The position numbers and the translations under genes were made by a program. Positions 2,358 through 60,715 of a stretch of 64,000 bases of DNA are shown piece after piece. Location of the stretch: positions 1 to 64,000 of the forward strand of contig SHWB01000006.1 of NCBI GenBank assembly GCA_009691025.1. The letters are read 5' to 3'. The stretch's first letter is position 1. Each line of letters starts with the position of its first letter. The DNA is from Alphaproteobacteria bacterium (GTDB lineage Bacteria; Pseudomonadota; Alphaproteobacteria; UBA6615). Under the pieces are notes generated by a model that searched no databases, had not been told where the DNA came from, and saw only the letters and a list, made by a program, of their open reading frames with translations.

Positions 2358-2915
2358 ATGACCAGCCCCGTGCTTCCCGTCGCCCTGCTCGTCGCGCCAG
2401 GATTTGCCGAGACGCATTTCACCGATGCCCAGAAGGCCCTGCTCGGCGGTGGCAACAAGATCCGCGTCGTGACCACCGAAGGCAGCCTCGTCCAGGGCTG
2501 GCACGAGGAGGCGTGGGGCCATCATTTCATGGTCGATGCCAACCTCGCCGACGTGCTGTCGTCCGACTATTCCGGCCTCATCGTCCCGGGCGGCAGGCGC
2601 AGCATCGAGGCGCTGGTCGAGAGCCCGCACGCGCGTCGCGTGGTCAAGTCCTTCATCGACACCGGCAAGCCCGTGCTGATGATTGGCGAGGCGCTGTTGC
2701 TGCTGGTGCGCGCCGAAGTCGCCTCCAGCCGCCGCGTCGCCGCGCCGGCCGCCCTCGGCGACGAGCTGACGGGTGCCGGCGCGACGGTCGAAGGCGAGGC
2801 GCTGACGCGTGACGACAACCTGCTGACGCTCGCCGGCGACGACGGCGTGCGCGAGGCTGTCGGCGCCTTCATCAACCTGATGCACGGCGACGACGCGACC
2901 CGCGAAGCCGCCTGA
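2358..2915 (+). CDS. DJ-1/PfpI (ThiJ) family protein lacking the usual nucleophile
   Basis: The 185-residue protein has the DJ-1/PfpI fold pattern: PVALLVAPGFAE at the start, IRVVTTEG, then YSGLIVPGG and KPVLMIGEALLLL. Active relatives carry AICHG at the nucleophile elbow (glyoxalase, deglycase or protease-like). Here the matching residues read MIGEA, so Cys is Gly and His is Glu. Catalysis by the standard mechanism is therefore unlikely, and a binding or structural role is possible. The acidic residue region near the start (GFAETHF) is kept. ATG 2358 follows CAGGAGAG at good spacing; upstream in-frame starts are weaker. The methyltransferase pseudogene converges on it from the other strand. 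Confidence 0.8.
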   Translation: MTSPVLPVALLVAPGFAETHFTDAQKALLGGGNKIRVVTTEGSLVQGWHEEAWGHHFMVDANLADVLSSDYSGLIVPGGRRSIEALVESPHARRVVKSFIDTGKPVLMIGEALLLLVRAEVASSRRVAAPAALGDELTGAGATVEGEALTRDDNLLTLAGDDGVREAVGAFINLMHGDDATREAA

Positions 2916-2934
2916 CGCCTCTGCGCGGAGCGGC

Positions 2935-4050
2935 TCAATCGCTCCGCCGCAGCCCGAACAGGTCGCTCGCCACCGGCTTGCCGTATTCCGTCCGCAGCGT
3001 CGTCTGGCCGGCTTCCAGCACGCTGAATCCGTCCGCCTCGGCCAGCGTGCGGACATGGCCGCGAGCGTGGACATATCGCCCGTTATGCGCGAGCCGCCAG
3101 GCCGCCCCTGGCGGCGGCGCCTCCCATCGCTCGGTGGTGAAGACCAGCACGCCGCCGGGGCGCAACACCTTGCCGATGGTGGCGAGTTCCGGGGCGAGAT
3201 CGCCGATATAGACGAACACGTCGGCCGCGACCGCGGCGTCGTAATCGCGCGCGCGGAAGCGCCGTGATCGTGTCGATAGGGGCTACGTGCAGCGCCTCGT
3301 AGAATCCGCGCGACCGCGCCTTCGCCAGCATCTACGCCGACAGGCCGACGCCGACGATGCTGGCGCATTGGTCGCGGATCGCGATGCCGGCGAGGCCGGT
3401 GCCGCAGCCAAGGTCGAGGACCGCCAACCCCCCGCTGCCGCCGGTCGCCCGCCGCAGCGCCTCGGCCACCTTTTCCGGTGCGCGGTAGTCGAGATGGTCG
3501 ACGAGAACCTGCTCGAACGTGTCGGCGTACCAGTCGAAGAACGGTCCGATTTAATCGTCCGGCCGCGCGCCGGCACCGGTGCGGCCTCCAGCGCCGCCAG
3601 CATGAAGGCCGGGCCGCGGCTGGTTGGCGCAAGCTCCGCGCAGCGCCGCTAATGGGCGACGGAGCCTTCGCGATCGCCGAGGCGCGCGCGCAGATTGCCC
3701 ATCAGCCAGTGCGCCTTGAGACATCCAGGGTCGGCGGCGAGCGCGCGCATCAGCAAGCGATGCGCACGTCGGTCGTCGCCGTGGAACAGCAGTGTTGCGG
3801 CAACGGATGCGGACGCCACTGCGTCCAGCGCACGGGCTTTGCGCATGCTGTCCGCGGCCTCGGAGGACCGGCCGAGCCGGTGCTGTACGACGGCAAGCCC
3901 GCGCCACGCCGCGGCGCTTCTCGGCCATGCCTCGACGGCGGCGCGGAAGCGGATTTCCGCCTCGCCGGTTCGACCCGCGCGTTCTGCGGCGACGGCGTTC
4001 AGGAAGAGATCGACGGCAGCCGTCACGGGCGCCGCAGCGCCCGCCGGCAT
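2935..4050 (-). pseudogene. TPR-methyltransferase fusion, broken by stops and frameshifts
   Basis: Read from 4050 downward, the first part is a tetratricopeptide region (AVEAWPRSAAAWRGLA, ALAADPGCLKAHWLMGNL) that ends at a stop after SVAH (about 3649). It is followed in the same frame by RRCAELAPTSRGPAFMLAAL. The rest is a class I SAM methyltransferase read in another frame (FFDWYADTFEQVL, VLDLGCGTGLAGIA), with TAA just before it and TAG after GVGLSA. Near 3255, at a (CG)5 run, the frame shifts again to VFVYIGDLAPEL and VLRPGGVLVF. This TPR-plus-methyltransferase layout is a known alphaproteobacterial family. Three stops and two frame changes make it non-functional as one protein. It lies directly downstream of the small Tat-type gene, probably once in one operon. 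Confidence 0.85.
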
Positions 4051-16863: not shown

Positions 16864-19800
16864 GTGCATCTGCTCGCCGCCGCACCGGGACGCATCGACG
16901 ACGGCGGCGAGGCGATCGATCTCGGCCAGACGCCGGGCGAGATCGTGGTGCTGACGGCGGCAGATAGCGAGGTCGCCTGTCTCGCCGCCGCGCAGGCGCG
17001 ACGCCTCGCTGCCAGTTCGGCGGCGCCGGTGCTGCGGCTGGCCAATCTGCTGCGCCTCGCCCATCCGCTGTCGGTCGACCTCTACGTCGAGCGCATTGTG
17101 CGTCCCGCACGCCTCGTCGTCGTGCGGCTGCTGGGCGGGCGCGGATACTGGCCCTACGGCGTCGACGAGATCGAGGCCGCCTGCCGCGAACGGGGGATCC
17201 CCGCCGCCTTCCTGCCGGGCGACGACCAGCCCGACGCGGCACTGTCCCGTGCCACGACGGTGGCAGCGCCGGACGCGTTCCGCCTGTGGCAATACCTGGT
17301 TCACGGCGGTATCGTGAATGCGGAACACTTTCTCGCCTTTGCCGCGACGCTGGCAGGCCGTGATGACGAATGGCGCGAGCCGGCGCCGCTGTTGCGCGCC
17401 GGATGGTGGCGGCGAAGCGACGTCCTCGCCCTTCGATACGCCGGCTACCGGCTGGCTCCTCAGGGTGAGGACTACGGGGAAGAATCGGTACGGCACAGCC
17501 GCCGCGAAAAGGAACCTCATCCTGAGGAAGCCCGGAGGGCCGTATCGAAGGACGAGGTTCCGTCGATCGCCGCCCGCCCCCGCGCCGTCGTCGTGTGCTA
17601 CCGCGCCCTCGTGCAGGCCGGCGACATGGCGGCGATAGACGCGCTCGTCGCGGCGCTGGAAGCGGAAGGCATCGACGCCGCAGCGATGTACGTGCAGAGC
17701 CTGCGCGATCCCGGTTGCGCGGCCTTCGTGACGGAAGCCCTGGCGGCAGGGCCGCCCGACATCGTGCTCAACGCCACTTCGTTCGCGGTGGCGCGCCCCG
17801 GCGCGCCAGAGGCGGGGCCGTTCGCGGCCTCGGACTGCCCGGTGCTGCAGGTGGTGCTGGCCGGCTCCGGCGCGGCGGCATGGCGAGATGGTGCCAATGG
17901 CCTCGCCGCGCGAGACATCGCCATGAACGTGGCGCTGCCGGAGGTCGACGGGCGCATCCTCTCCCGCGCCATAGCCTTCAAGGATGCGGCGCGGCGTGAC
18001 ATGGCGACCGAGGCCGACATCGTCGCCCATGTGCCGGTCGCCGATCGCGTCGCCTTCACCGCGCGGCTGGCAGCGTCCTGGTGCCGGCTGCGGCGGAAGG
18101 CGGCAGGCGAACGGCGCATTGCCATCGTGCTTGCCAACTACCCCAACCGCGACGGCCGCATGGGCAATGGCGTCGGCCTCGACGTGCCGGCGAGCACAGT
18201 CGGTCTTCTCGCCGACCTGGCGAACGCGGGGTATCGCATCGAGGGCGTGCCGGAAGACTGCGACGCGCTGATGGCGGCGCTGGCGGCGGGCCCGACCAAT
18301 GCCGGCATCGCCGGGCGCCGCGACGGCGAGCGGCTGATGCTGCCCGATTACGAAATCTTCCTCGGCGCTCTGCCGCCGGTGGTCCGCAATGCCGTGAGCG
18401 AGCGCTGGGGGCCGCCGACGGGCGACCCTTTCTTCCGGCCTGGCGAACTCGATTGCGGTGCCTTCGCCGTGCCGGCGCTGGTCTTTGGCAATGTTGCCAT
18501 CGTCCTGCAGCCGGCGCGCGGCTACAACATCGATCCGGCCTCGAGCTACCACGATCCGGCGCTGGTACCGCCCCACGGCTACCTCGCGGTTTACGCTTGG
18601 CTGCGCGACACCTTCCGCGCGGACGCCGTCGTCCACATGGGCAAGCACGGCAATCTGGAATGGCTGCCGGGCAAGGCGGTGGCACTGTCGGAGGCCTGCT
18701 TCCCCGAAGCAGCGCTCGGGCCCTTGCCTAACCTCTACCCGTTCATCGTCAACGATCCCGGCGAGGGCACGCAGGCCAAGCGGCGCGCCGCCGCCGTCAT
18801 CGTCGACCATTTGACGCCGCCGCTGGCTCGGGCCGGCGCGCAGGGCGGCGTACCGGAGGTCGAGCGCCTCGTCGACGAATACTGGGAGGCGGCGAATCTC
18901 GACCCGCGCCGCCTGCCGCTGCTGAGCAAGCGGATCGCCGAGGCGATGGTGGAGAGTGGCCTCGACCGCGATCTCGGCCTGCCGCCGGGCACACCGGTGG
19001 CCGACGCTCTCGGCCGGCTCGACGCCTGGCTGTGCGAGCTGAAGGAACTGCAGATTCGCGACGGGCTGCACGTCTTCGGCCGCTCGCCCGAGGGCGCGGC
19101 GCGCGACGAGATGCTGGCGGCGATGGTGCGCCTGCCGCGCGGCCCAAAGGCGGCGGACGCATCCTTGCCGCGCGCGCTGGCGGCCGATCTCGACCTTGAT
19201 CTCGACCCGCTCGCCGCCGATGCAGAGGCGCCGTGGACCGGCCAGCGCCCTGCCGGTCTCGACGGCTACGAAGGTGTCTGGCGCAGTGCCGGAGACACGG
19301 TCGAGCGCATCGAGGCGCTGGCGCTCGACCTGATCGCGGGCCGGCGCGCGGCGGAACCCGGGTGGCCACGAACGACCGCCGTGCTGGCCGAGATCGAGGC
19401 ACGCCTGCGTCCGGCCATCGCCGCGAGCGGCGCGGCGGAGACGGCGGCGCTGCTGGCCGGGCTAGACGGCCGCTTTGTCGCCCCGGGCCCGTCAGGCGCG
19501 CCGACGCGCGGGCGGCCCGAAGTGCTGCCGACCGGGCGTAACTTCTTCTCGGTCGATGTCCGCGCGGTGCCAACTCCGGAGGCGTGGGAATTGGGCTGGC
19601 GTTCGGCCTCTCTGCTCGTCGAGGCGCATGCGCAGAAGCACGGCGACTGGCCGCGCGCGATGGCGTTGTCGGCCTGGGGTACAGCCAACATGCGCACCGG
19701 CGGAGACGATATAGCCCAGGCGCTGGCGCTGCTCGGTGTGCGCCCGCTGTGGGAAGACGCGACGCGGCGGGTGATTGGATTCGAGGTGATGCCGGTGTCG

Positions 19801-20760
19801 GTCCTCGGCCGGCCGCGCGTCGATGTCACCCTGCGGGTTTCCGGCTTCTTCCGTGATGCCTTTGCCAGCCTGATCGAGCTGTTCGACAGCGCCGTCGCCG
19901 CCGTCGCCGCGCGCACCGACGAGGCGCCGCGCGACAACCCGGTGGCGCACTGCGTCGCAGTGGAGGCAGCGGCGCTGACGGCCGAGGGCGTCGAGCCCGG
20001 CATGGCACGACGTCAGGCGAGCTATCGCGTCTTCGGCTCGCCGCCGGGCGCCTATGGCGCCGGCCTGCAGGCGCTAATAGACGAGCGCGGCTGGGACAGC
20101 CCCGCCGATCTGGCGAAGGCCTATCTCGCCTGGGGCGGTTACGCCTACGGTGCCGGCGCGGCGACGGGCGGCGGCGGTGGCTACGGCGCGCCGGCCGCGC
20201 GCGCCTTCGCCCGCCGCCTCACCGCCGTCCAGGCCGTCATCCACAACCAGGACAATCGCGAGCACGATCTGCTCGACAGCGACGATTACTACCAGTTCGA
20301 AGGCGGTCTCGTGGCCACCGTCGAACATCTGTCAGGCCGCCGGCCGACCGCCTGGCACAACGACCATTCGCGCCCCGAACGGCCGCGCATCGGCACACTG
20401 GAGGACGAGATCTCGCGCATCGTGCGGGCGCGTGCGGCCAACCCGAAATGGATCGCCGGCGTGATGCGCCACGGCTACAAGGGCGCCTTCGAGATGGCGG
20501 CGACGGTCGACTACCTCTTCGCCTTCGCCGCCACCACCGGCGCCGTACGCGACGACCAGTTTGACCGCGTCTACGCCGCCTATCTGGAGGACGATGCCGT
20601 GCGCGACTTCATCGCTGACTCCAATCCGGCGGCGCTGCGCGAGATGGCGCAACGCTTCCTCGAAGCCATCGACCGGGCCCTGTGGACACCACGCGCCAAC
20701 AGCGCCCGAGACCGCCTCACGGGGCTGGCGGCACAACGGGCATCCAGGGTGGAAGCATGA
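16864..20760 (+). CDS. cobN: cobaltochelatase large subunit CobN, with an in-frame REP insertion
   Basis: CobN is the corrin-binding subunit of the ATP-dependent cobaltochelatase; the ATPase subunits CobS/CobT are not in the window. The 1298-residue protein is slightly longer than relatives. Family motifs include DYEIFLGALPPVV, the chelatase motif MGKHGNLEWLPGKAVALSE (about 593-612) and, near the C-terminus, GVMRHGYKGAFEMAATVDYLF. At about residues 181-237 a stretch of foreign composition (LRYAGYRLAPQGEDYG, REKEPHPEEARRAVSK) is encoded by two inverted REP-like palindromes. It sits just before the conserved VVVCYRALVQAGD and keeps the frame. Start GTG 16864; the end overlaps cobO by ATGA. Confidence 0.95.
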   Translation: MHLLAAAPGRIDDGGEAIDLGQTPGEIVVLTAADSEVACLAAAQARRLAASSAAPVLRLANLLRLAHPLSVDLYVERIVRPARLVVVRLLGGRGYWPYGVDEIEAACRERGIPAAFLPGDDQPDAALSRATTVAAPDAFRLWQYLVHGGIVNAEHFLAFAATLAGRDDEWREPAPLLRAGWWRRSDVLALRYAGYRLAPQGEDYGEESVRHSRREKEPHPEEARRAVSKDEVPSIAARPRAVVVCYRALVQAGDMAAIDALVAALEAEGIDAAAMYVQSLRDPGCAAFVTEALAAGPPDIVLNATSFAVARPGAPEAGPFAASDCPVLQVVLAGSGAAAWRDGANGLAARDIAMNVALPEVDGRILSRAIAFKDAARRDMATEADIVAHVPVADRVAFTARLAASWCRLRRKAAGERRIAIVLANYPNRDGRMGNGVGLDVPASTVGLLADLANAGYRIEGVPEDCDALMAALAAGPTNAGIAGRRDGERLMLPDYEIFLGALPPVVRNAVSERWGPPTGDPFFRPGELDCGAFAVPALVFGNVAIVLQPARGYNIDPASSYHDPALVPPHGYLAVYAWLRDTFRADAVVHMGKHGNLEWLPGKAVALSEACFPEAALGPLPNLYPFIVNDPGEGTQAKRRAAAVIVDHLTPPLARAGAQGGVPEVERLVDEYWEAANLDPRRLPLLSKRIAEAMVESGLDRDLGLPPGTPVADALGRLDAWLCELKELQIRDGLHVFGRSPEGAARDEMLAAMVRLPRGPKAADASLPRALAADLDLDLDPLAADAEAPWTGQRPAGLDGYEGVWRSAGDTVERIEALALDLIAGRRAAEPGWPRTTAVLAEIEARLRPAIAASGAAETAALLAGLDGRFVAPGPSGAPTRGRPEVLPTGRNFFSVDVRAVPTPEAWELGWRSASLLVEAHAQKHGDWPRAMALSAWGTANMRTGGDDIAQALALLGVRPLWEDATRRVIGFEVMPVSVLGRPRVDVTLRVSGFFRDAFASLIELFDSAVAAVAARTDEAPRDNPVAHCVAVEAAALTAEGVEPGMARRQASYRVFGSPPGAYGAGLQALIDERGWDSPADLAKAYLAWGGYAYGAGAATGGGGGYGAPAARAFARRLTAVQAVIHNQDNREHDLLDSDDYYQFEGGLVATVEHLSGRRPTAWHNDHSRPERPRIGTLEDEISRIVRARAANPKWIAGVMRHGYKGAFEMAATVDYLFAFAATTGAVRDDQFDRVYAAYLEDDAVRDFIADSNPAALREMAQRFLEAIDRALWTPRANSARDRLTGLAAQRASRVEA
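17422..17559. repeat. pair of inverted REP-like palindromes inside cobN
   Basis: Element a (17422-17472) has arms GTCCTCGCCCT and AGGGTGAGGAC. Element b (17513-17559) has arms AACCTCATCCT and AGGACGAGGTT and is oriented opposite to a. Both share the core TTCGATACG and CTCAGG of a dispersed alphaproteobacterial REP family. The pair, with flanks of about 168 bases, is translated in frame within cobN. Related pairs lie at 45712-45800 and 60595-60715. Confidence 0.85.
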
Positions 20761-45711: not shown

Positions 45712-45800
45712 GACCCCATCCTTCGGCAGGCTCGGGATGAAGTCTCGGGGAAAACCGTTCCCTGGCCGCCTCACCCTGAGCTTGTCGAAGGGCGAGTGGC
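45712..45800. repeat. REP-like palindrome pair between gyrB and the PBP gene
   Basis: Element a (45712-45744) has arms near CATCC and GGATG around CTTCGGCAGGCTC. Element b (45768-45800) reads CCTCACCCTGAGCTTGTCGAAGGGCGAG in two halves and is inverted relative to a. It belongs to the same dispersed family as 60595-60715 and the pair inside cobN. It lies just after the gyrB stop. Confidence 0.8.
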
Positions 45801-60594: not shown

Positions 60595-60715
60595 CCTCGC
60601 CCTTCGACAGGCTCAGGGTGAGGATCGTGGGGGAATGGCGCCGCCACCGGCGCGTTGCATGCCGGGCATGCTGCAACGTTCATCCTCATCCTGAGCCTGT
60701 CGAAGGATGAGGATG
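60595..60715. repeat. REP-like palindrome pair
   Basis: Element a (60595-60623) reads CCTCGCCCTTCGACAG then GCTCAGGGTGAGG. Element b (60681-60715) has 12-bp arms CATCCTCATCCT and AGGATGAGGATG around GAGCCTGTCGA and is inverted relative to a. It lies between the MoeB gene and the hydroxyacid dehydrogenase remnant, whose 3' end is 44 bp away. This is the best-preserved copy of the family in the window. Confidence 0.9.

Follow-up and report, generated by a model that had tools for sequence, protein, structure and literature searches.

An inverted REP pair translated in frame inside an alphaproteobacterial cobN gene, and recurrent insertions at two CobN sites

The cobN gene of an alphaproteobacterial MAG (G000; 1.67 Mb, 27 contigs, 61% complete) was found to contain two inverted REP units which are translated as part of the cobaltochelatase protein. 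The window, namely the whole stretch of 64,000 nucleotides analyzed here, has this gene at a position well inside a 97-kb contig. The presence of the REP pair in cobN, together with its multiplicity in the genome, is far beyond chance. Very probably, a mobile composite palindrome was inserted neutrally into a permissive connector of CobN. The same connector and a second loop of CobN were found to carry inserts of unrelated repeats in other Alphaproteobacteria.

The translated REP pair in CobN

The features in the window are as follows, where R1 is the covariance model and the E values for the cobN units were computed over the window.

16864..20760, + strand: cobN, cobaltochelatase subunit CobN (uninterrupted ORF, 1298 aa)
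17422..17562, + strand: REP-derived coding segment, residues ~187-233 (codon map), predicted to be disordered
17424..17470, + strand: REP unit 1, in frame, residues ~187-203 (VLALRYAGYRLAPQGED); R1 63.1 bits, E 6e-18, and codon map
17471..17514, + strand: spacer of the REP pair, 44 nt, translated too (comparison of 17 REP pairs)
17515..17557, - strand: REP unit 2, inverted, residues ~218-231 in the cobN frame (PHPEEARRAVSKDE); R1 56.5 bits, E 9e-16
45769..45797, - strand: REP of the short type, which shares the outer stem but has no inner hairpin, outside cobN; R1 28.1 bits
60595..60623, + strand, and 60684..60712, - strand: short-type REP pair, outside cobN; R1 33.1 and 30.6 bits

A single open ORF contains both REP units, and the remainder of the gene is intact. 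CobN residues 1-1291 give a full-length match to TIGR02257 (1526 bits, cut-off 822), and the protein is 57-67% identical to 57 other CobN proteins over 1190 residues. When aligned with the solved CobN structure 9uk9, it matches in two blocks (query residues 1-186 and 237-1290), between which 9uk9 has only 14 residues. The arms of the palindrome (17424-17440 and 17541-17557) are 94% paired. The first-pass annotation had claimed a REP pair translated in frame in cobN, and the R1 scores, the single open ORF, and the multicopy nature of the family bear this out.

Of the 98 aligned CobN proteins, 69 have a connector of 29 residues (G of LLRAG to Y of YRAL). The connector has 65 residues in the window CobN, 67 residues in one other sequence (L039, described below), and at most 38 residues in all the rest. 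The net gain is 36 residues, while the REP DNA (17422-17562) encodes about 45-47 residues; thus, about ten native connector residues have been lost. The earlier estimate of about 56 added residues was too high. Two residues found in at least 90% of the relatives, P184 and W198 (in the numbering of L014, a relative without the insert), are missing from the window CobN, and their absence could be costly. The insert was correctly placed just before a conserved block, which reads P-V-A-x-x-x-F-Y-R-A-L.

An AlphaFold2 model of window CobN residues 1-1190 (58 sequences) has a pTM of 0.81, with a pLDDT of 37-45 for residues 188-230 and above 90 for the domains on either side. The best Foldseek match of this model is the CobN structure 7c6o (E 3e-73). 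In the model of L014 (47 sequences, pTM 0.85), the connector has a pLDDT of about 90-96 and a short helix at residues 191-195. Judging from these models, the insertion site (site A) is a link between domains, ordered in the relatives and probably replaced by a disordered segment in the window CobN. A surface loop had been supposed at first, and this holds only in part: the segment links two N-terminal domains and is predicted to be ordered in the relative and disordered in the window CobN.

Has the REP segment acquired a function? It might have been co-opted as a flexible hinge or interaction peptide, or as an RNA hairpin slowing translation between the domains. The strand from 17400 to 17580 (181 nt) folds at -54.3 kcal/mol against -38.1 kcal/mol in shuffles (z -4.99, 0 of 200), and this strong hairpin in the coding strand would suit such a role, as would the replacement of an ordered native connector and the recurrence of inserts between the domains. 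However, the codon composition of the segment differs from that of the remainder of cobN (GC3 of 0.66 versus 0.84 for the whole gene), the segment is not conserved across lineages, and the same place is occupied by unrelated repeats. I regard co-option as distinctly unlikely.

The REP family in the source genome

The cobN REP region has 43 BLAST matches in G000, and about 60 units of the family were found at 42 sites with the covariance model. The units (46 nt, with a 15-bp model stem) are short imperfect palindromes, multicopy and dispersed. There are 17 inverted pairs including that of cobN, 13 of which are in the +/- order and four in the -/+ order, and the start of the cobN spacer (GGGGAA...) is similar to the spacers of other pairs. 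Of the 55 units tabulated, only three have a GATACG variant, namely both cobN units and one of the remaining 53, which fits the arrival of the two cobN units as a pair.

ORFs overlapping the REP sites were listed from the DNA surrounding the REPs, and Pfam was run on 20 of them. The sites are mostly extragenic; apart from cobN, conserved genes are overlapped only upstream, as judged from these 20 ORFs. A clear internal coding REP in a conserved protein was found at one of the 42 sites, that of cobN, and the genome search proposed by the first-pass annotation gave no other clear internal copy among these sites. REP units were also observed in the N-terminal extensions of three ORFs, which encode an ABC transporter (L166:2858-4993), a beta-eliminating lyase (L167:3097-4299), and a zinc dehydrogenase (L172:2355-3482). 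The Pfam domains of all three begin downstream of the REP, and the idea of many other coding REPs in G000 was therefore rejected. These three overlaps probably result from mis-set start codons, and it is possible that the REPs lie in 5′ leaders.

How easily can such a pair be accommodated in an ORF? Averaged over the 16 REP pairs outside cobN, 1.7 of the six frames are open (about 28% of random frames), and the chance of an insertion passing both the frame and stop filters is about 9%. Thus, no special mechanism is needed, only selection against the remaining insertions.

The first-pass annotation had assigned REPs at 45.7 and 60.6 kb to the same family. The elements at 45.8 and 60.6-60.7 kb are indeed related, but their match to R1 is confined to the outer stem (28-33 bits), the 22-nt inner hairpin being absent. 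They thus form a short subtype distinct from the element in cobN.

Y1_Tnp (PF01797) was found neither in G000 nor in G006 (99% complete, with at least 150 REP matches) nor in the single-contig genome G051. Three RAYT-like genes were found in other genomes, where the window-type REP is absent nearby. A resident RAYT as the mobiliser therefore found no support.

Insertions at two sites of CobN

None of the readable CobN sequences from relatives in the same GTDB family has the insert at site A, though most of these relatives have the REP elsewhere; the empty site for the window cobN is known at family distance. This pattern agrees with the first reading of the segment as an in-frame insertion, and the same residues were not seen in the CobN of relatives lacking the REP family.

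Among the 97 other aligned CobN proteins, a comparable insert was found in one, L039 of Rhodospirillales bacterium Ww62 (genome G060, with 32 REP matches), which belongs to a distant clade. Its connector contains units of the same REP family as the window cobN, at 2882-2927 (+ strand, 65.9 bits) and 2942-2984 (- strand, 55.2 bits) and keeps the native YWPG...LEDLPW. G063, a close relative of Ww62, has an empty site (LEDLPHSEGRPVAAITF). In the CobN tree, the window groups with its own family, while L039 and G064 are in a separate, fully supported clade. Thus, the REP inserts of the window and L039 are independent. Their common descent was rejected, since the clades are separate, the close members are insert-free, and the retained connector residues differ. 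A locus of Magnetospirillum sp. UT-4 (L081:9910-10059) was found to contain three units that belong to the REP family of the window, indicating that the REP family extends well beyond the window's own taxonomic family.

Other repeats have entered the same connector. G064, from the same small clade as L039, has a connector that is 65 residues longer due to an unrelated palindromic repeat of the CCCTCTCC/GGGGAGGG type, which has dozens of copies in its own genome. The cobN of G257 is in two halves, at the ends of two contigs that break off exactly in the connector, and the 27-nt contig ends are mutually inverted. The 18-mer CCCCCTCACCCTGATCCC occurs 36 times in this genome with at most one mismatch, and the reversed control does not occur. 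The G257 connector is probably interrupted by a third repeat type, as judged from the contig ends, the insert itself being absent from the assembly. A contig of G353 ends at the cobN connector. In an even sample of 385 members of the class, 123 matched the connector query; among these, an insert interrupts the match within a single contig in the window genome alone, and G257 has it split across two contigs. In the order of G060, two of 35 have a connector insert.

It is conceivable that a misassembly or a binning error joined the REP pair into cobN. The source is a MAG in 27 contigs with 61% completeness, the consensus of a MAG may err at a repeat, and repeats break the assembly at the same connector in G257. 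However, the repeats and spacer (134 nt) keep the reading frame and are bordered on both sides by unique cobN sequence, the rare GATACG variant is common to both units, and the unrelated assembly of L039 has an equivalent insert. Such an artefact is very unlikely.

A few other cobN records deserve mention. In two relatives the gene looks broken, which suggests pseudogenes or assembly errors: G018 (C14:31355-35142) has TGA stops and cobN matches spread over several frames, and in G005 (C3:189366-193143) cobN is divided between two ORFs that overlap (frames of 950 and 612 aa). The L060 contig is titled Mesoflavibacter sp. (Bacteroidota), but the tree nests its CobN with that of Pacificispira (Alphaproteobacteria), so that the record is probably misnamed.

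A second insertion site (site B) was found near residue 800, preceding W-R-T-x-G-D-T-V-E-R. The inserts here are 29 residues long in Magnetospirillum sp. UT-4 (L081), 39 residues in another Magnetospirillum sp. (L075), and 40 residues in Roseospira navarrensis (L111), and all three are strong palindromes recurring in their own genomes. At the same site, G147 and G235 have inserts of 126-127 residues, which are a tandem repeat and a low-complexity sequence, respectively. The in-frame insert of G147 (L225, C72:3903-4282; 126 residues) consists of about seven SPINDNDGDGGRPAVK-like units. Since these two inserts are non-palindromic, the site B loop seems to be generally permissive. In the 98-protein alignment, there are five inserts of at least 25 residues, all of which are palindromes. 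A general rule that all large CobN inserts are palindromes fails beyond this alignment, with G147 and G235 as the counterexamples.

Are the connector and the residue-800 loop preferred targets for palindromic repeats, beyond mere tolerance? At least six palindromic-repeat insertions of several unrelated types are found at two sites of a protein of ~1250 residues, in separate lineages. However, the purging of insertions elsewhere in CobN means that tolerance alone yields such clustering, and the second loop takes non-palindromic inserts too (the tandem repeat of G147 and the low-complexity insert of G235). Hotspots in this sense seem improbable.

The neutral insertion favored here would have proceeded as follows. 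A mobile composite palindrome (two ~46-nt inverted REPs and a short spacer), inserted by some enzyme, would have entered the part of cobN encoding the connector that joins the N-terminal domain (residues ~1-182) to the domain starting at ~238. The survivors would be the insertions that keep the frame, are free of stops, and lie in a tolerant place, and part of the native connector may have been lost during or after the insertion. The REP peptide would be a neutral disordered passenger of a CobN that still works. Such a filter of frame, stops, and tolerance would lead to unrelated palindromes in the same connector and residue-800 loop of other Alphaproteobacteria. A bolder and rather doubtful proposal is that CobN has two landing sites at which unrelated palindrome families were repeatedly domesticated as coding sequence across Alphaproteobacteria, so that large changes in the length of this protein would stem mainly from selfish palindromes, which may also alter its inter-domain hinge.

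Protein-coding palindromes are a route for selfish DNA to add protein sequence. CobN offers a natural series: a single protein in which two tolerant sites have received several unrelated repeats, with the site left empty in close relatives. This series allows one to test whether inserts of this sort affect the enzyme or are neutral. It also gives a warning that such repeats may break assemblies within conserved genes.

Comparison with known repeat classes

Within open-access papers, no account was found of unrelated repeats having entered two sites of CobN repeatedly and independently, and a literature search with the repeat sequence itself gave chance matches only. REPs translated in frame have already been published for free-living bacteria, Alphaproteobacteria among them (PMC3733652, in the part available); thus, the cobN insert is ordinary in kind, and its recurrence is the unusual part. 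According to that part of the paper, many free-living species have GTAG and CGTC REPs within ORFs. Intragenic REPs are listed for E. litoralis and S. alaskensis, for instance, which weakens the first-pass claim that such insertions are rarely reported in free-living Alphaproteobacteria. The CGTC REPs are most frequent in Alphaproteobacteria and have no dedicated transposase, and the inserts may be neutral because of their location in flexible linkers or loops (PMC3733652).

Like the cobN REPs, the intragenic GTAG and CGTC REPs are short palindromes, mostly inverted dimers, that are in frame within proteins (PMC3733652). The hallmarks of a CGTC REP are a terminal CGTC tag, an 8-9 bp stem, a 4-5 nt loop, and a CCA tail (PMC3733652). 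The consensus of the window-type unit (CCTCGCCCTTCGAGACG...CTCCTCAGGGTGAGG) has no terminal GTAG tag, and, compared with this text description, its CGTC is internal, its stem is longer, and the CCA tail is absent. Thus, the cobN REP differs from the REPs described in that part of the paper in being neither GTAG-tagged nor terminally CGTC-tagged.

Rickettsia palindromic elements (RPE) are likewise palindromic families in frame within alphaproteobacterial proteins, and the cobN REP pair is of this kind, an in-frame translated palindrome within a conserved protein. RPE-4 and RPE-6 of R. conorii are CGTC REPs (PMC3733652). R. conorii has many coding RPE copies, whereas only one of the 42 REP sites is clearly internal in G000, a free-living-type host. 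REPIN/BIME elements share the inverted REP pairs with a spacer and the multicopy nature, but they have a RAYT, whereas the window genome and its repeat-richest relatives lack Y1_Tnp. The ORF-carrying small mobile sequences of enterobacteria are also small mobile repeats that are intragenic and translated, but the repeats and the hosts are different (PMC2759123, in the part available).

The closest parallel to the recurrence is recB of two Xanthomonas species, in which different REPs lie at about the same site (PMC3733652). The same part of that paper makes no mention of CobN. Compared with the two Xanthomonas species, the recurrence in CobN extends over several genera, with repeats of several unrelated types.
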